From assembly GCF_017696075.1 (NCBI RefSeq), contig NZ_JAAORI010000004.1:62001-126000 (forward strand): DNA of 64,000 bases, in the 5' to 3' direction. Shown in pieces: positions 22,233 to 36,929 of this stretch; within the stretch, counting starts at the first letter, position 1, and each line of letters starts with the position of its first letter. The DNA is from Prochlorococcus marinus XMU1411. GTDB taxonomy: Bacteria; Cyanobacteriota; Cyanobacteriia; PCC-6307; Cyanobiaceae. Below the pieces are notes generated by a model. That model saw only the letters and a list, made by a program, of their open reading frames with translations, did no database searches and was not told the DNA's origin. The position numbers were made by a program, and so were the translations under genes.

Positions 22233-23598
22233 TAATCTATTAAGAGCTCCAAACCAAAGTATTGAGGAAACTGGTTATGCCTGGTATGTAGGCAACGCTA
22301 GATTAATCAATTTATCTGGACGTTTATTAGGAGCTCACATTGCTCACTCTGGACTAATAGTCTTTTGGGCGGGAGCAATGATGCTCTTTGAGGTTAATCA
22401 TTTCACTTTTGATAAACCAATGTGGGAGCAAGGTTTAATCTGTATGCCACACGTTGCAATGTTTGGTTATGGAATAGGCCCTGGTGGTGAAGTTACTGAT
22501 ATCATGCCTTTCTTCCAAGCAGGTGTGGTTCACTTGATAGCTTCCGCTGTTCTTGGTTTTGGTGGTATTTACCATTCATTAGCAGGTCCAGAAAAACTTG
22601 AAGAAGATTTTCCATTTTTCTCCACAGATTGGAGAGATAAAAATCAAATGACAAACATCCTTGGATATCATTTGATTGTTCTAGGTGTAGGTGCTCTAGC
22701 ATGGTCAGTAAACTGGTGTTTTATTGGCGGTGCATATGACACTTGGGCACCTGGTGGTGGTGAAGTTAGACTTGTAAACCCTACTTTAGACCCAAGAGTT
22801 ATTCTTGGTTATCTATTCAGATCTCCATGGGGAGGAGCTGGTTCAATAATCGGTGTTAACTCCATTGAAGATATTGTTGGTGGACATGTTTACGTGGGTA
22901 TTACTGCAATTATTGGAGGAATATTCCATATCTTTACCAAACCTTTTGGATGGGCAAGAAGAGCATTCATCTGGAATGGTGAAGGACTATTAAGTTATGC
23001 TCTTGGTGGAATTTGTGTAGCAAGTTTTATTGCTTCAACATTCATCTGGTTTAACAACACTGCTTACCCTTCAGAGTTTTATGGTCCAACAAATGCTGAA
23101 GCTTCACAGGCCCAAAGTTTTACTTTCCTAGTGAGAGATCAAAGAATTGGAGCTAACGTAGGTTCAACAATGGGACCAACAGGTCTAGGTAAGTATCTCA
23201 TGAGATCTCCTACTGGTGAAATTATATTTGGTGGTGAAACAATGAGATTTTGGGATTTCAGAGGTCCATGGTTAGAGCCTTTAAGGGGGCCTAACGGATT
23301 GAGCCTTGAGAAAATCCAGAATGATATTCAGCCTTGGCAGGTAAGAAGAGCTGCTGAATATATGACTCATGCTCCTAACGCTTCTATCAACTCCGTTGGT
23401 GGAATCATTACAGAGCCTAATGCTGTTAACTTCGTTAACTTAAGACAATGGTTAGCTGCTGCTCAATTCTTCCTAGGATGGTTTACATTCATCGGTCACC
23501 TTTGGCATGCTGGACGTGCTAGAGCAGCCGCTGCTGGTTTCGAAAAAGGAATCGACAGAAAGAGTGAACCAGCTCTAGAAATGCCTGATTTAGATTAA
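22216..23598 (+). CDS. psbC: Photosystem II CP43 core antenna
   Basis: A six-helix chlorophyll-a inner antenna also contributing a ligand to the Mn cluster. Starting at the GTG gives 460 aa with N-terminus [19 protein letters not shown]. Conserved features include [36 protein letters not shown] and the large lumenal loop with [20 protein letters not shown] and [18 protein letters not shown], which contains the Glu and Arg near the Mn cluster. The 17-bp overlap with psbD and the GTG start mirror the arrangement in chloroplasts and other cyanobacteria. Confidence 0.98.
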
Positions 23599-26120: not shown

Positions 26121-26669
26121 CTAAACATTACCAATTATTAGAAAAAGAAAAATATAGTAGAAAAGTGACCCTAAAAACGTGTTTAAGAATATTATCTTTT
26201 TCCTGATTTTTGAAGAGGCAATAATATAGCTTCCTAAAACATGGGGTAAGATTGGGAAAGATCTTATTATTAAAATAAAGAAAGATCTGAAAGTAACATT
26301 TTTAAAATATTTATACATATTATTGTTTTCTGGCTTTTTCAAAAACAACATATTTTTAGAAAATCTGAATTTAATTTTTCTCAAGATAAGAACTTGAATT
26401 ACACTTAAGATAGTTAATACGGGAGAAAAAAATAAAACATAATTAAACCCAAAAAGCTTTATTAATATAAAATCAAAAATAATTGATAGAGGAAGACCTA
26501 AAAATATAGAAATGATATTCAATAATATCAAAAGTTTATATTGCATATTATTAACTAACGACTCAATATCATAGGTATATTTAAAAATAAGCGCCAAAAA
26601 ATAAACTGCTAAGTAAGTAAAAAATATTTTAAAGATTACTGATTTGAAATCCAAATTTTTTCTGTACAT
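26121..26669 (-). CDS. VTT/DedA-like integral membrane protein
   Basis: A 182-aa protein with about five hydrophobic segments and a basic stretch in the middle (RKIKFRFSKN). The C-terminal half (SFFILIIRSFPILPHVLGSY, then KIRKKIIFLNTFLGSLF) resembles the SNARE-associated VTT domain with its R-x-P motif and G-S pair, but it is degenerate. ATG start. It converges with the ferredoxin gene (7 bp). Very AT-rich, as is the DNA upstream of it. Confidence 0.6.
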   Translation of the reverse strand: MYRKNLDFKSVIFKIFFTYLAVYFLALIFKYTYDIESLVNNMQYKLLILLNIISIFLGLPLSIIFDFILIKLFGFNYVLFFSPVLTILSVIQVLILRKIKFRFSKNMLFLKKPENNNMYKYFKNVTFRSFFILIIRSFPILPHVLGSYIIASSKIRKKIIFLNTFLGSLFYYIFLFLIIGNV

Positions 26670-26843: not shown

Positions 26844-26854
26844 CGGAGAGGGTG
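26844..26854. repeat. Distal copy of tRNA-Ser 3' end (att-like)
   Basis: CGGAGAGGGTG here is identical to 28284-28294, which is the discriminator base, acceptor arm and start of the T stem of tRNA-Ser. The bases on either side differ, so identity is exactly 11 bp. Candidate distal attachment-site remnant; 11 bp is short enough that chance is not excluded. Confidence 0.45.
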
Positions 26855-26900
26855 TCAGTTGAGATGGATACATGGGACACGCTCAGAAACTTGCTGACAC
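26852..26900. repeat. Inverted repeat GTGTCAG / CTGACAC
   Basis: GTGTCAG at 26852-26858 and CTGACAC at 26894-26900 are exact inverted copies separated by 35 bp, directly next to the distal tRNA-end repeat. The TGTCAG/CTGACA word recurs several times on the other side of the HNH gene (28144-28272), suggesting a common binding protein for both ends. Confidence 0.5.
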
Positions 26901-26920
26901 TGGTATTCTCGTAAATAAGT

Positions 26921-26935
26921 AAAATTCCACCAACA
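26921..26935 (+). repeat. 15-bp direct repeat, left copy
   Basis: AAAATTCCACCAACA here is repeated exactly at 28101-28115. The core CCACCAACA occurs twice more at 28087-28095 and 28119-28127. All four copies have the same orientation and flank the HNH gene. They look like recombinase arm sites or element-end repeats. Confidence 0.7.
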
Positions 26936-26940
26936 CTTTT

Positions 26941-28014
26941 CTAATTTGGGTTCATAGCATCAATTATCTTTTTCATAACTGCATCAAAACACTTCTTTTT
27001 AGAACCTTTTGGCGCTTGTAACCATTTTTGTTGGCAATTTAAATATTCCTTTTTTAAAGAATCTTCCCATTTACCCCTTGTGATGAAAGCATGAATTGAT
27101 GGAGTAATTGGAACAACATTTTCTTCGTCATAGATAAGTTCTGGATACTCTGCACGAGGTAGAAGGTGATGCAGTTCAGTAGGAATTGAATTTGTATAGA
27201 GACATTTAGTTGTATTAATATTTGGGAACTTCTTTTTAAATTTGCTTGAACTCCATCTTTCAGAATCTTCTAAATTATTATCGTTAAGACCAAGATCGTT
27301 GATAAATTTATTTGCTAATAATTTCTCCCAACTTTTAACTCCACCTTTTCTCTTTTGAATATTTGCACCCAAACCAAATCTTCCCCAGTCTCTTCTATCT
27401 AATAGATCATTATCATTATGTCTAACAATAAAAATCTTTTTTGCTAAGTCAATATCATCTTTAGATGAATCATTAGTTAAATTTTTTAGATGTTTTAACC
27501 AAATAATTTCCATCATAATTAAAACCTCTTGATCACTAAGATCAGATTGTTTAGTTTGAAAAAACATTTGAGGCAAAATTGATTTAGATTCGCACCATTC
27601 TTTGCCAGGAAAAATGTGAAAACATATAAAAGAAAATTGTGTATAACCTCTCTGCAACCAAGCATCATATTTATATCCAGTTTGACGAAGATAGTTTGCA
27701 TTAACAAATGATGACAAGGCATCATCTCTAGGGATTCTTTGAGATATTAATTTAGGAACTACGTCTATTGAATCTAATTGAATATTAAATTGATTAGTTA
27801 TTCTAAATTTCCAAACCGCTTCCAAAATTCTTCTCGCTTTATTTTTACTCATTCCAGACTTTGAAATTTTCCAATCTGATCTATTCAAATCTAATCTCAC
27901 GCTACTTTTTTTCTCCCAATTAGATAAATCGTATTCATCAAAATCGGGAAATCTTTCTTTTAAGAATCTTGGGGGTGCCCAAGGATTTTGGATTAGGAAA
28001 TCTTTCCAATCCAT
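26941..28014 (-). CDS. HNH endonuclease-like protein in tRNA-Ser flanked segment
   Basis: A 357-aa protein with an unrecognised N-terminal 270 residues and a C-terminal HNH-type motif: H282-H283 in ELHHLLPRAEYPE, N299 in DEENVVPITP and H308 in SIHAFI, the spacing of the betabetaalpha-metal fold. Only the C-terminal part suggests nuclease activity. The N-terminus (FLIQNPWAPPRFLKERFPDF) is Trp- and Arg-rich. It is the sole gene between copies of the tRNA-Ser 3' end and is bracketed by direct repeats. It could be element cargo, a defence nuclease, or a solitary HNH protein. ATG start. Confidence 0.75.
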   Translation of the reverse strand: MDWKDFLIQNPWAPPRFLKERFPDFDEYDLSNWEKKSSVRLDLNRSDWKISKSGMSKNKARRILEAVWKFRITNQFNIQLDSIDVVPKLISQRIPRDDALSSFVNANYLRQTGYKYDAWLQRGYTQFSFICFHIFPGKEWCESKSILPQMFFQTKQSDLSDQEVLIMMEIIWLKHLKNLTNDSSKDDIDLAKKIFIVRHNDNDLLDRRDWGRFGLGANIQKRKGGVKSWEKLLANKFINDLGLNDNNLEDSERWSSSKFKKKFPNINTTKCLYTNSIPTELHHLLPRAEYPELIYDEENVVPITPSIHAFITRGKWEDSLKKEYLNCQQKWLQAPKGSKKKCFDAVMKKIIDAMNPN

Positions 28015-28086
28015 AATTATTGGAGAAATTAAGTTTTAGTATCTTTTTATTTTACATTTAATTAATTAAATAGAATTGAACCCAAT

Positions 28087-28127
28087 CCACCAACATTCTA
28101 AAAATTCCACCAACATTTCCACCAACA
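28087..28127 (+). repeat. Three CCACCAACA repeats
   Basis: CCACCAACA at 28087-28095, 28107-28115 and 28119-28127, spaced 20 and 12 bp apart start to start. The middle copy belongs to the 15-bp repeat matched at 26921-26935. They lie 73 bp upstream of the HNH gene start. Too few and too short to be a CRISPR. Confidence 0.75.
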
Positions 28128-28143
28128 TTTTCTTTAAAAAAGG

Positions 28144-28272
28144 TCTGACATTGTCTGAATTCACCTGACATTATCAGACACCGTTTTTAAGAATAAAATA
28201 CAATAATTGTTGTTATAACATGTCTTTACAAAGATTTTGAATCTAAGAGAACACCTCTGACACCGTCAGACA
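28144..28272. repeat. Cluster of TCTGAC/GTCAGA inverted motifs
   Basis: TCTGACA (28144), TGTCTGA (28152), CTGA-n5-TCAG (28165-28177), TCAGACACCG (28174) and the palindrome TCTGAC-ACC-GTCAGA (28256-28270) all occur within 130 bp, ending 12 bp from the tRNA-Ser 3' end. The density and the match to the inverted repeat at 26852-26900 point to recombinase or repressor sites. Confidence 0.6.
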
Positions 28273-28283
28273 CTAAAAAAATC

Positions 28284-28368
28284 CGGAGAGGGTGGGATTC
28301 GAACCCACGAATAGTTTCCTATTAAACGATTTCGAATCGTTCGCTTTCGACCACTCAGCCACCTCTCC
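28284..28368 (-). tRNA. tRNA-Ser(CGA)
   Basis: An 85-nt class II tRNA. Acceptor stem GGAGAGG pairs with CCTCTCC, with discriminator G. The D arm contains TGGCTGAGTGG, the anticodon stem AACGA/TCGTT encloses loop TTCGAAA (anticodon CGA, reading UCG), a long variable arm follows, and the T arm has GGGTTCGAATCCC. CCA is not encoded. Its 3' end is the proposed integration target of the adjacent segment. Confidence 0.96.
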
Positions 28369-28431
28369 GCCTGTTTATAAGTATGCACAGAATCACAGAG
28401 AAAATTATTTTTTATCAAATTATCTTAATTT

Positions 28432-29454
28432 TCAATCCCACCCAGCATCTCTCATTAGTTTTATAGCAAGAGAATTATTTACCCCAAGGTCATCAACAGT
28501 AACCTTGTCAGGAGTAAATTCACCAAAGTTTTTTACGATAGGATTTTGATTGACTTCTTTTAATGGATGCTCAAAAGTAGGAGCTGCTAAGCCTTTACTC
28601 CCACTTGGAGATGCTAAATATTCAAGTAGCTTGATAGCGTTTGCTTTATTTTCTGCATATTTTGCTACCCCACCAGCACTTATATTTACATGTGCGGGAT
28701 TTGGGGTTATAACAGAAGTTCGTTTGGAATATAAAACATCTCTTCTTCCATTAACACCAGCCAACATTCTCGCGACATAATAATGATTAACAATTCCTAC
28801 TCCACATTTTTTTTGGGAAACTGCTCTAATAATTGCGATATCGCCAGGAAAGAAAGGTTGGGAAACATTTGCAATCATTCCGCTTAACCAAGCTTTAGTT
28901 TTTGATTCACCTTTGTTAACTAATTGATTAGCTACTAAAGATTGATTATATGGACTTTTTCTATTTCTTAAGCACACTTTTCCTTTAAAGGATGGATCAG
29001 CTAAATCTGTATAATCTTTAATCTTGCTAACATCTACAACTTTTGGATTAGCTACCATAACTCTTACTCTTCTTGTTAATGCATACCATTCCTTATTTTT
29101 ATCCTTTAGCCCCATTGGGACATCATTTTCTAATGATTTTGATTCTACACTTTGAAGTAATCCAGCTTTAGCCGCATTAGTAATTCTTGCAGCATCTACA
29201 AGTAATATTAAATCTGCTTGAGAATTCTTCCCCTCTCTTTTTAATCTTTCAATTAGTGATATTCCTGCCGCTTCGATAAGCCTAACTTTAATTCCTGTTT
29301 CTTCTGAAAACTTTTTGTAGACACTCCTATCAGTGTTGTAATGTCTACCTGAATAAACTCTGACTTCTTTTTCCGATGAATTGGCAGGTATATTAACGTT
29401 GAATAAAAACGTACATGTTAGTACTGAGTAAATTAGTTTTTTAAAATTTTGCAC
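28432..29454 (-). CDS. futA: Ferric iron ABC transporter substrate-binding protein (FutA/IdiA)
   Basis: A periplasmic Fe(III)-binding protein of 340 aa with a signal peptide (about residues 1-26, LIYSVLTCTFLFNV, ANSSEKE). Typical FutA/FbpA features are VYSGRHYNTD at 33-42 and the iron-ligand tyrosines in NHYYVARM (Y225, Y226). The permease and ATPase genes are not in the window. In cyanobacteria IdiA/FutA is induced by iron limitation and may also protect PSII. GTG start. Divergent from the PiuC-like gene, so one intergenic region of 102 bp could control both. Confidence 0.93.
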   Translation of the reverse strand: MQNFKKLIYSVLTCTFLFNVNIPANSSEKEVRVYSGRHYNTDRSVYKKFSEETGIKVRLIEAAGISLIERLKREGKNSQADLILLVDAARITNAAKAGLLQSVESKSLENDVPMGLKDKNKEWYALTRRVRVMVANPKVVDVSKIKDYTDLADPSFKGKVCLRNRKSPYNQSLVANQLVNKGESKTKAWLSGMIANVSQPFFPGDIAIIRAVSQKKCGVGIVNHYYVARMLAGVNGRRDVLYSKRTSVITPNPAHVNISAGGVAKYAENKANAIKLLEYLASPSGSKGLAAPTFEHPLKEVNQNPIVKNFGEFTPDKVTVDDLGVNNSLAIKLMRDAGWD

Positions 29455-35870: not shown

Positions 35871-36929
35871 CTAATTTTGAGTAATTTTTGTATTTTCAAT
35901 ATTGTCAAAAGCTTGACCAATTTTCTTAAAGTCAAATCCCATTGCTCTTAGTGCGTGCCAAAGATGACCTTGTAAGAAAAAGAAACCCAAATAAAAATGA
36001 GTATTAGCAAGCCAAGCTCTTGAGCTATATGCCCCTGAACCTAAATCTACCGTATCAGTAAAATAAGGTGCGAATTCAAATTGAAGCTTTAAGGGCTCTC
36101 CATATAAATCAACTGGATATATAGTTGTGTTTGAAGCACACCAAAAAGCCGCAACGAAAGCCATATAAGATACACCAACTACTGAGTATGACAAAATAGC
36201 CTCAGCACCAAGTAATCCTTTTCCTTTAAATTCTGTATATTCTCCAAATTGTTTAGTACAAATATGGAAAACTCCTCCAATTATTTCGAGGAAAGCTAAG
36301 AAAGCATGTCCTCCCATGACATCTTCCAGACTATCTATTTTTAAAAAATCAAATTGATGATTCCAGATAGCGGCAATATCTAAATTGTAAATAACTTGTC
36401 TTGTAGATCCTATTGCTGGGTCGTAAATTCCATGAATACGAGCCCATTCAACAAACATTATTGCTCCAAGTCCAAGAAAAATTAGATGATGACCAAGAAT
36501 AAAAGTTAATTTATCTGGATCATCCCATTCAAAATCAAATTTTTGTGGCTTACTATTTTCTGGATAGTCTCCAAGATCGCCTGCAAATTTATTGGAGTGT
36601 AGTAATCCCCCAGCACCCAGCACTGCTGAGAATATTAGATGTAATGTGCAAATTACAACAATTCCATATGGTTCTGTAATAACACCATTTTCAATACCGC
36701 CAATTCCTATACCCGCTAGATGAGGTAAAACAATTGCTTTTTGTGCACCCATTGGAATACTGGAGTCATAACGAGCCAATTCGAATAATCCAAAAGCTCC
36801 TGCCCAGAACATCATTAGACCTGCATGGGCAGCATGAGCAGCTATGAATTTACCTGAACGGCCAACAACACCAGAATTCCCTGCATACCAGTCATAGGTG
36901 ACATCAGATTTTCCGTAAGTTTGTAACAC
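35871..36929 (-). CDS. Chlorophyll-binding antenna protein, Pcb/IsiA family
   Basis: A six-helix CP43-like protein of 352 aa lacking the large lumenal loop of CP43, as expected for Pcb/IsiA. Features include MLQTYGKSDVTYDWYAGNS, GKFIAAHAAHAGLMMFWAGA, FILGHHLIFLGLGAI, LEDVMGGHAFLAFLEIIGGV and HFYLGFFFLQGHLWHALRAM with chlorophyll-ligand histidines. GTG start. It lies 148 bp downstream of flavodoxin isiB on the same strand, the reverse of the usual isiA-isiB order. The pairing suggests an iron-stress antenna rather than the constitutive Pcb. It has its own terminator. Confidence 0.93.
   Translation of the reverse strand: MLQTYGKSDVTYDWYAGNSGVVGRSGKFIAAHAAHAGLMMFWAGAFGLFELARYDSSIPMGAQKAIVLPHLAGIGIGGIENGVITEPYGIVVICTLHLIFSAVLGAGGLLHSNKFAGDLGDYPENSKPQKFDFEWDDPDKLTFILGHHLIFLGLGAIMFVEWARIHGIYDPAIGSTRQVIYNLDIAAIWNHQFDFLKIDSLEDVMGGHAFLAFLEIIGGVFHICTKQFGEYTEFKGKGLLGAEAILSYSVVGVSYMAFVAAFWCASNTTIYPVDLYGEPLKLQFEFAPYFTDTVDLGSGAYSSRAWLANTHFYLGFFFLQGHLWHALRAMGFDFKKIGQAFDNIENTKITQN

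Follow-up and report, generated by a model that had tools for sequence, protein, structure and literature searches.

Very small units without an integrase at a tRNA-Ser gene of Prochlorococcus and the probable role of a helper recombinase

How does a segment of 1.44 kb, with one open reading frame (ORF) and no recombinase, come to lie between two copies of the 3' end of a tRNA gene? The question is raised by Prochlorococcus marinus XMU1411, within a stretch of 64,000 nucleotides from contig NZ_JAAORI010000004.1 (positions 62,001 to 126,000), which we call the window and number from its first letter. We give a probability of roughly three in four to this answer: the segment, at 26844-28294, is a unit of a family of very small elements that lack an integrase, it was inserted at tRNA-Ser(CGA) by a helper recombinase acting in trans, and its gene for an HNH-type protein is cargo. 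The reading is built on comparison of sequences, in which the ends and the core are conserved, the cargo turns over, the units are free of recombinases, and a sister unit has been transferred between species with the precision of a unit.

Two cores and a single gene

The 11-bp core CGGAGAGGGTG is found on the forward strand at 26844-26854 and at 28284-28294. The right core falls within an intact tRNA-Ser(CGA) gene (28283-28369, reverse strand, as predicted by ARAGORN; Rfam places the tRNA at 28284-28368), which is the presumed target of integration. So one core is the true 3' end of the tRNA, as the initial annotation of this DNA had stated, and the left core is a displaced copy of it. The whole genome of 1,673,779 bp has no further copy (a reversed pattern, used as a control, occurs once). 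Because an 11-bp repeat is short, it might by itself be due to chance, to the assembly, or to a duplication of the tRNA's end. But both copies in the genome are at this locus, the unit's ends are conserved in many genomes, and the cores in related loci all point the same way. Across 48 tRNA-Ser(CGA) loci that were selected for their arms (219 kb, including the window), there are 47 exact cores in the forward orientation, in 35 of the loci, and none in reverse or in shuffled sequences. With the two genome copies and the 47 forward cores against none in reverse, chance or artefact is ruled out for practical purposes, and we give it a negligible probability.

Each core is followed or preceded by an arm. 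The left arm (26855-26920, forward strand, from alignment and motif positions) has spaced motifs of the GACAC or CTGACA type, with TGTCAG at 26853 and CTGACA at 26894, and the right arm (28133-28283, forward strand, from alignment) has CTGACA at 28145, 28165, and 28257 and AGACAC at 28176 and 28268. The annotation had pointed to TGTCAG and CTGACA near both ends, and there are indeed five of them in the 377 bp of the unit's ends, as compared to 13 in the rest of the window (Poisson P for at least five, 2.3e-8, a post hoc value because the motif was picked after it had been seen).

Inside the arms are direct repeats that bound the gene. On the left, a repeat search identified AAAATTCCACCAACACTT (26921-26938, forward strand), in which CCACCAACA begins at offset 84 from the core; on the right, the repeats span 28084-28132 (forward strand), and CCACCAACA begins at 28087, 28107, and 28119, with spacings of 20 and 12. 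The annotation had described a 15-bp direct repeat closely flanking the only gene, as well as extra copies, and both are present: AAAATTCCACCAACA lies on the two sides of the gene (26921-26938 and 28101-28118, 94% over 18 nt), and CCACCAACA occurs four times on the window's forward strand (26927, 28087, 28107, and 28119), always within the unit, with one reverse copy elsewhere. The 15-bp repeats are part of a set whose offsets are fixed in the related units. Most of these have a second copy of CCACCAACA in the left arm, at offset 96, where the window's unit has a single copy, and the spacing of 20 and 12 on the right is found in other cargo-bearing units as well. Between the repeats is the cargo gene (26941-28014, reverse strand, from the ORF list and weak profile matches), which encodes 357 amino acids. 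It is the only ORF in the unit, so the segment does lack an integrase, as the annotation said.

Related units and their movement between species

The window's left end (26844-26940) has matches in 24 of 266 genomes of the genus (E <= 0.001), and its right end (28075-28294) has matches in 52 (E <= 1e-6, counted by hand, some of them by short pieces). At E 0.001, the right end matches 162 of the 266 genomes, with many rows being one 28-bp match to positions 46-75 of the query, which we set aside. A variant of the right-end pattern with an extra N, which excludes the window's own sequence and tests a subset, was found in five contigs, all from Prochlorococcus. From the fetched loci we picked by eye 31 units with ends of the window's family, from 29 genomes and ranging from 258 to 6051 bp; we dropped a cut-off second unit in locus L037 and one-ended remains. 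This is a lower bound because not all of the right-end matches were fetched. The core is exact on the left in 26 of the 31 units and on the right in 30. No unit of the 31 matches a recombinase profile that we built from eight sequences chosen by eye (one of these, the 415-aa ORF of L219, has no Pfam match). Over all of the arm-selected and census loci, the profile has three matches, in L129, L135, and L122 (outside units). Nine units, of 258-294 bp, contain no ORF of 70 or more amino acids once overlapping ORFs are removed. Also, if the window's two ends are joined together, ten gene-poor units can be aligned with them over their full length; such units look just as an empty attachment site should.

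The site varies greatly. Next to the tRNA, on the right, is a gene for 340 amino acids (28432-29454, reverse strand, from the ORF list), which we take to be futA-like (iron-binding); on the left of the unit is a gene (26121-26669, reverse strand) with a weak match to the VTT domain, below the cut-off. A query of the tRNA and the 340-aa gene has matches in 99 of 101 genomes of the genus, some in the tRNA part alone. In 19 genomes that were not chosen for their arms (L249 was left out), the gap from the neighbouring gene to the tRNA runs from about 30 bp to 8.3 kb, and there are five forward cores, in three genomes, and none in reverse. The annotation implied that the segment should not be vertically fixed in every strain and that the 11-bp repeat should be present at homologous loci. 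Just one of 266 genomes has the HNH gene, and some sites are nearly empty: in L052, the left flanking gene ends 32 bp from the tRNA, and in L233 the gap is about 30 bp. The core and ends do turn up again at homologous loci, where they enclose other cargo or nothing. At the other extreme, L114 has seven cores in a row, counting the tRNA's own and one that is mismatched. Such arrays also hold other families of ends with different arm motifs. As in an additive island, one site gains and loses variable cassettes, next to repeats of the tRNA's end that occur again and again. In one genome (G165, loci L038 and L039), tRNA-Ser(CGA) and a nearby unit of the family are close to tRNA-Ala, and the futA-like stretch has no tRNA, so this tRNA-Ser(CGA) seems to have moved.

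That units have moved between species is shown by a sister unit of 1,919 bp, which encodes an HSDR_N-type nuclease and a 76-aa ORF. Each genome that we considered represents a different species. The copies in L042, L043, and L123 differ by 3-7 bases (99.6-99.8% identity). Identity drops to 81.5-92.6% in the futA-like gene beside the tRNA and to 48.8-50.1% in the 300 bp to the left of the left core, at which the similarity ends. A fourth copy, in L037, is cut off and is 99% identical. L037 and L123 are 70% identical in the left 300 bp because, in both, the unit follows the right end of another unit. More broadly, across 247 pairs of units, the identity of the units does not track that of the host gene (Spearman -0.06, p 0.36, with pairs that are not independent), and it exceeds the host gene's identity by 5 points or more in 89 pairs. 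The units at tRNA-Ser(TGA) are informative as well: in all three, the right core is that tRNA's own variant, CGGAGGGGGTG, and the left core is exact in two of them. Because a sister unit has been transferred precisely between species and the core's variant follows the tRNA, we think that units without an integrase were moved site-specifically, presumably in trans. These are the patterns that site-specific integration leaves when the DNA itself lacks an integrase, and the 1,919-bp unit apparently travelled by itself. The idea of a satellite-like mini element that is moved in trans, which the annotation had put forward, thus gains support from an integrase-less sister that is shared between species, from recurring ends, and from near-empty sites. 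By extension, we infer that the window's copy would be mobile too.

Could the units instead be dead relics of old integrations that are exchanged by homologous recombination alone? The left core is imperfect in 5 of the 31 units, and one unit has no clear right core. Arrays of relics at tRNA genes would be expected under the concept of cis-mobilizable elements (CIMEs), as far as excerpts of PMC5704250 describe it. Also, the copies in L037 and L123 both have another unit's right end on their left. But when L042, L043, and L123 are compared with one another, all three pairs combine unrelated left flanks with nearly identical units, and the core's variant follows the target tRNA. So we view the relics as very unlikely. 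Purely vertical inheritance we reject: the HNH gene is confined to one genome of the genus and has only two relatives among 400 genomes of the family, and unit identity does not track the host gene.

What the units carry

Cargo is present in 22 of the units. Eight of these have nuclease-type cargo (the window, L042, L043, L123, L114b, L046, L136, and L127, with weak assignments for the window and for L114b, whose match to MTES_1575 is below the cut-off, and with L127 counted by similarity clustering), and two have EcsC/PDC-S29 cargo (L038 and L113), so 10 of 22 carry a nuclease-type or a candidate defence gene. The types are HSDR_N-type, GIY-YIG, MrcB_N/NOV_C, HNH_2, and EcsC/PDC-S29.

In 14 of the 22 cargo-bearing units, CCMCCAACA repeats lie on both sides, and their offsets are mostly fixed (84 and 96 from the left core, with spacings of 20 and 12 bp near the right arm). 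With the pattern that we used, the right set was not found in L044 or L130, the left set was not found in L122, and no inner repeats were found in the arms of L046, L127, L128, L133, or L136. Two comparisons bear on how cargo is exchanged. First, L113 and L038 are 98.6% identical over the EcsC part (1,038 bp), and L113 has one more small gene after it, with a further set of repeats 442 bp on. Second, L121 has two small genes whose relatives occur singly, in L114 (94% DNA identity) and in L118 (73%); gene cluster c46 is alone in L114, the related c60 is alone in L118, and both are in L121. From these comparisons, it seems that cargo enters and leaves at the CCMCCAACA repeats, by either homologous or site-specific recombination.

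The window's own cargo is harder to classify. The 357-aa protein has weak matches to HNH families (REase_II from PADLOC, 5.9e-05; HNH endonuclease from PHROG, 0.0012) and no match in Pfam at E <= 1. The H-H-N-H motif that the annotation had noticed can be written as LHHL...ENVV...HAF, and it is kept in both relatives that we found among 400 genomes of the family, in G523 (53% identity, another genus) and G483 (38%, split over two frames). The relative in G523 has no Pfam match either. It lies near several small ORFs and a 415-aa ORF that looks like a recombinase (L219, 4560-8341); this ORF has no Pfam match and may not be a recombinase. A structure model of the HNH protein from the single sequence reached a pLDDT (predicted local distance difference test) of 38, and a model from four sequences reached 69. 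Its sequence has no match in PDB at E <= 10. There is no partner methyltransferase in the unit, which has a single gene. Our impression is that the protein is cargo and is probably a stand-alone nuclease, restriction-like or otherwise directed against invaders.

We also asked about phages. The HNH protein has no match to phage records at E 1e-5, and relatives of the locus were not found among 70 pattern-matching stretches of genome contigs or 13 stretches of viral contigs; a phage origin of the gene is rejected because it has neither a phage-record match at that threshold nor a related locus in a viral contig. The right end has one weak match to phage records (E 0.7). Pattern scans of viromes, one of them with the extra-N pattern, gave four contigs in total, three of which look unrelated by composition or context. 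The fourth (L228, IMGVR_UViG_3300026203_000135, 549-1010) has a left end of the window's family and a cargo ORF, and then switches, at CGGAGAGGGTG, to structural genes of a T4-like phage. It is a piece of a host's array joined to T4-like genes, either by insertion into a phage or in a chimeric contig, and this ambiguous case is the sole observation that bears on packaging by phages.

One other observation from the window concerns neither the unit nor its neighbours. Rfam's IsrR matches at 22630-22813 (reverse strand, 154 bits) and at 36356-36527 (forward strand, 56 bits); presumably, these could be mere antisense of a pcb/isiA-type coding sequence.

Candidate helpers and the place of the units among mobile elements

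We propose that a unit consists of hardly anything beyond an attachment site, made up of a right arm, the 11-bp core, and a left arm, and that it would carry zero, one, or a few genes between inner direct repeats. Site-specific recombination within the core would bring the unit into the 3' end of tRNA-Ser(CGA); in the window, insertion would have rebuilt the tRNA and left the second core at 26844. The recombinase would act in trans and would most likely be a tyrosine integrase with an arm-binding domain (we take such integrases to be P4-type), along with an excision factor. The integrase would come from an autonomous element with this tRNA core as its own site and with an attachment layout of a similar kind. 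We infer that the AGACAC and CTGACA motifs are the integrase's arm sites and that the CCMCCAACA pairs are sites for the excision factor or for cargo exchange.

Elements that carry an integrase and use the same core do exist. Relatives of an integrase from genome G104 are found in 23 of 266 genomes (26 matches), and when we checked for cores within 1.5 kb, plus in four wider stretches, five of the 26 were beside one: G104, G202, G081, and G189 with CGGAGAGGGTG, and G147 with CGGAGGGGGTG. In G104, G202, and G081, tRNA-Ser(CGA) is at the other end of the element, and the stretches that were fetched for G147 and G189 contain no tRNA. All five integrases tested, together with that of G202, match PF00589 (G189's is below the cut-off), and those of G104 and G202 have the Pfam domains Arm-DNA-bind_3 and Phage_integrase. 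G104 and G202 share GGCAC and ACATGTGT motifs with one family of integrase-less ends, and G081 shares TGTCCA motifs with another. Four of the five elements have a pair of direct repeats at offset 70-84 with a spacing of 11-12 bp. The pair in G147 reads TCACCAACA at 83 and 95, which is close to the CCACCAACA pair at 84 and 96 of most units in the window's family. In G104, the integrase element directly adjoins a right end of the window's family. By analogy with these elements, which use the same cores, the helper for the window's arms is likely to be a similar integrase. In G081, the element lies between a core and tRNA-Ser(CGA) (L135, 8162-11571 as oriented, with the tRNA at L279, 4424-4508) and encodes its integrase in a 444-aa ORF; the ORF that follows reads, we presume, like a small serine recombinase.

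Several observations count against our answer. Among the loci that we examined, there is no integrase element with AGACAC/CTGACA arms, which are those of the window's family. The element in G189 does not have the repeat pair; an exact pair of at least 10 bp at offset 82-84 is present at just 5 of 13 integrase-less cores, and the window's left arm has one copy. In the window's genome, the sole match to PF00589 at E <= 0.001 is a chromosomal recombinase of 389 aa. Of the 19 genomes in the census, 16 have no extra exact core, and the window's HNH gene together with the family's ends is known from one genome. As for the cargo, the genes in 12 of the 22 cargo-bearing units are of other or unknown types, the similarity of the window's protein to HNH nucleases is weak, and its better model (pLDDT 69) has no structural match in PDB at E <= 0.001.

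The 389-aa tyrosine recombinase could itself move the units, which would make them an integron-like resident system. This protein passes Pfam's cut-off and is the only match to PF00589 in 11 of the 24 genomes that were searched, the window's among them. A query with a related recombinase matches at least 217 of 266 genomes of the genus, and among the matches listed, many frames are 386-404 aa. Its gene in the window's genome (L152, 5940-7109) sits among genes that we take to be of housekeeping types and is not beside the tRNA-Ser genes. Because the elements that bring an integrase to these cores resemble the units in attachment layout, and arrays with several families of arm motifs suggest several enzymes, we find this to be quite unlikely.

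Another group of candidates is the integrases of 384-430 aa on the 5' side of tRNA-Ser(TGA), which might act in trans on both tRNA-Ser genes. They are on the opposite strand from the tRNA in 18 of 18 fetched loci that include it (among the 20 loci L194-L213), and 19 of 20 copies are within 0.4 kb of it. One genome, G150, has units with ends of the window's family at both tRNA-Ser genes as well as such an integrase. But of the ten genomes with a close one (at least 58%), only G127 and G229 are among the 29 that bear units. Furthermore, the 20 fetched stretches include three with a single CCACCAACA and one with an arm match (E 0.004). Overall, this seems unlikely. We continue to prefer integrases of autonomous elements at the same cores.

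How do the units compare to known elements? According to excerpts of PMC5704250, a CIME keeps its attachment ends, lacks genes for integration and transfer, and may be in tandem with other elements at one target. By comparison, the window's type of unit likewise keeps its presumed attachment ends, lacks genes for integration and transfer, and stands in tandem with other elements. Unlike in that description, the sister unit has moved although the fetched loci show no integrase element next to it, and nine units are gene-less (258-294 bp). In 'Ca. Methylopumilus', the genomic island fGI-2 has recurring copies of a tRNA's 3' end beside variable DNA of 330 bp to 42 kb, as sketched in the excerpts of PMC10872708; here, conserved arms, inner repeats that bound the cargo, gene-less units, and integrase-bearing neighbours at the same site are resolved. 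The tycheposons of Prochlorococcus are also mobile DNA with cargo at a tRNA border, and a tRNA gene does border the window's unit. As characterized in parts of PMC10872708 and PMC10187409, tycheposons have a tyrosine recombinase, and the first source gives their size as 4-200 kb, whereas the window's unit is 1.44 kb (0.26-6.05 kb across the family) and no tyrosine recombinase was found in the 31 units. Picocyanobacterial integrases upstream of tRNA-Phe or tRNA-Cys are associated with islands of variable genes, often with a small serine recombinase nearby (PMC10187409, a preprint, in part), but those are other tRNAs and the window's unit has no integrase.

Finally, miniature inverted-repeat transposable elements (MITEs) and clusters of attC sites lacking integron-integrases (CALINs) are enzyme-less derivatives that depend on helpers, with MITEs being about 300 nt (PMC11389934, in part). 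The units are enzyme-less too, and the gene-less ones are in the size range of MITEs. They differ in having a tRNA core and attachment arms as borders, rather than inverted repeats, and a fixed target. Compared in inverted orientation, the two 110-bp ends of the window's unit match exactly over 8 bp at most, so we found no terminal inverted repeats there.

More tentatively, the units may support a two-level, integron-like exchange of defence genes, an idea that we rate as possible but doubtful. Bare units (258-294 bp) and cargo-bearing ones would accumulate at tRNA-Ser genes and pass from species to species via any suitable integrase, and single genes would be swapped between the CCMCCAACA repeats. 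Transposons, integrons, and conjugative elements all have hitchers without an enzyme of their own, namely MITEs, CALINs, and CIMEs, respectively. The units would be a version that uses a tRNA and a tyrosine integrase, in a very abundant phototroph of the ocean, and here the smallest form is an attachment site of about 260 bp that carries no gene. It suggests a route by which streamlined cells, which rarely have integrases, may trade defence genes.
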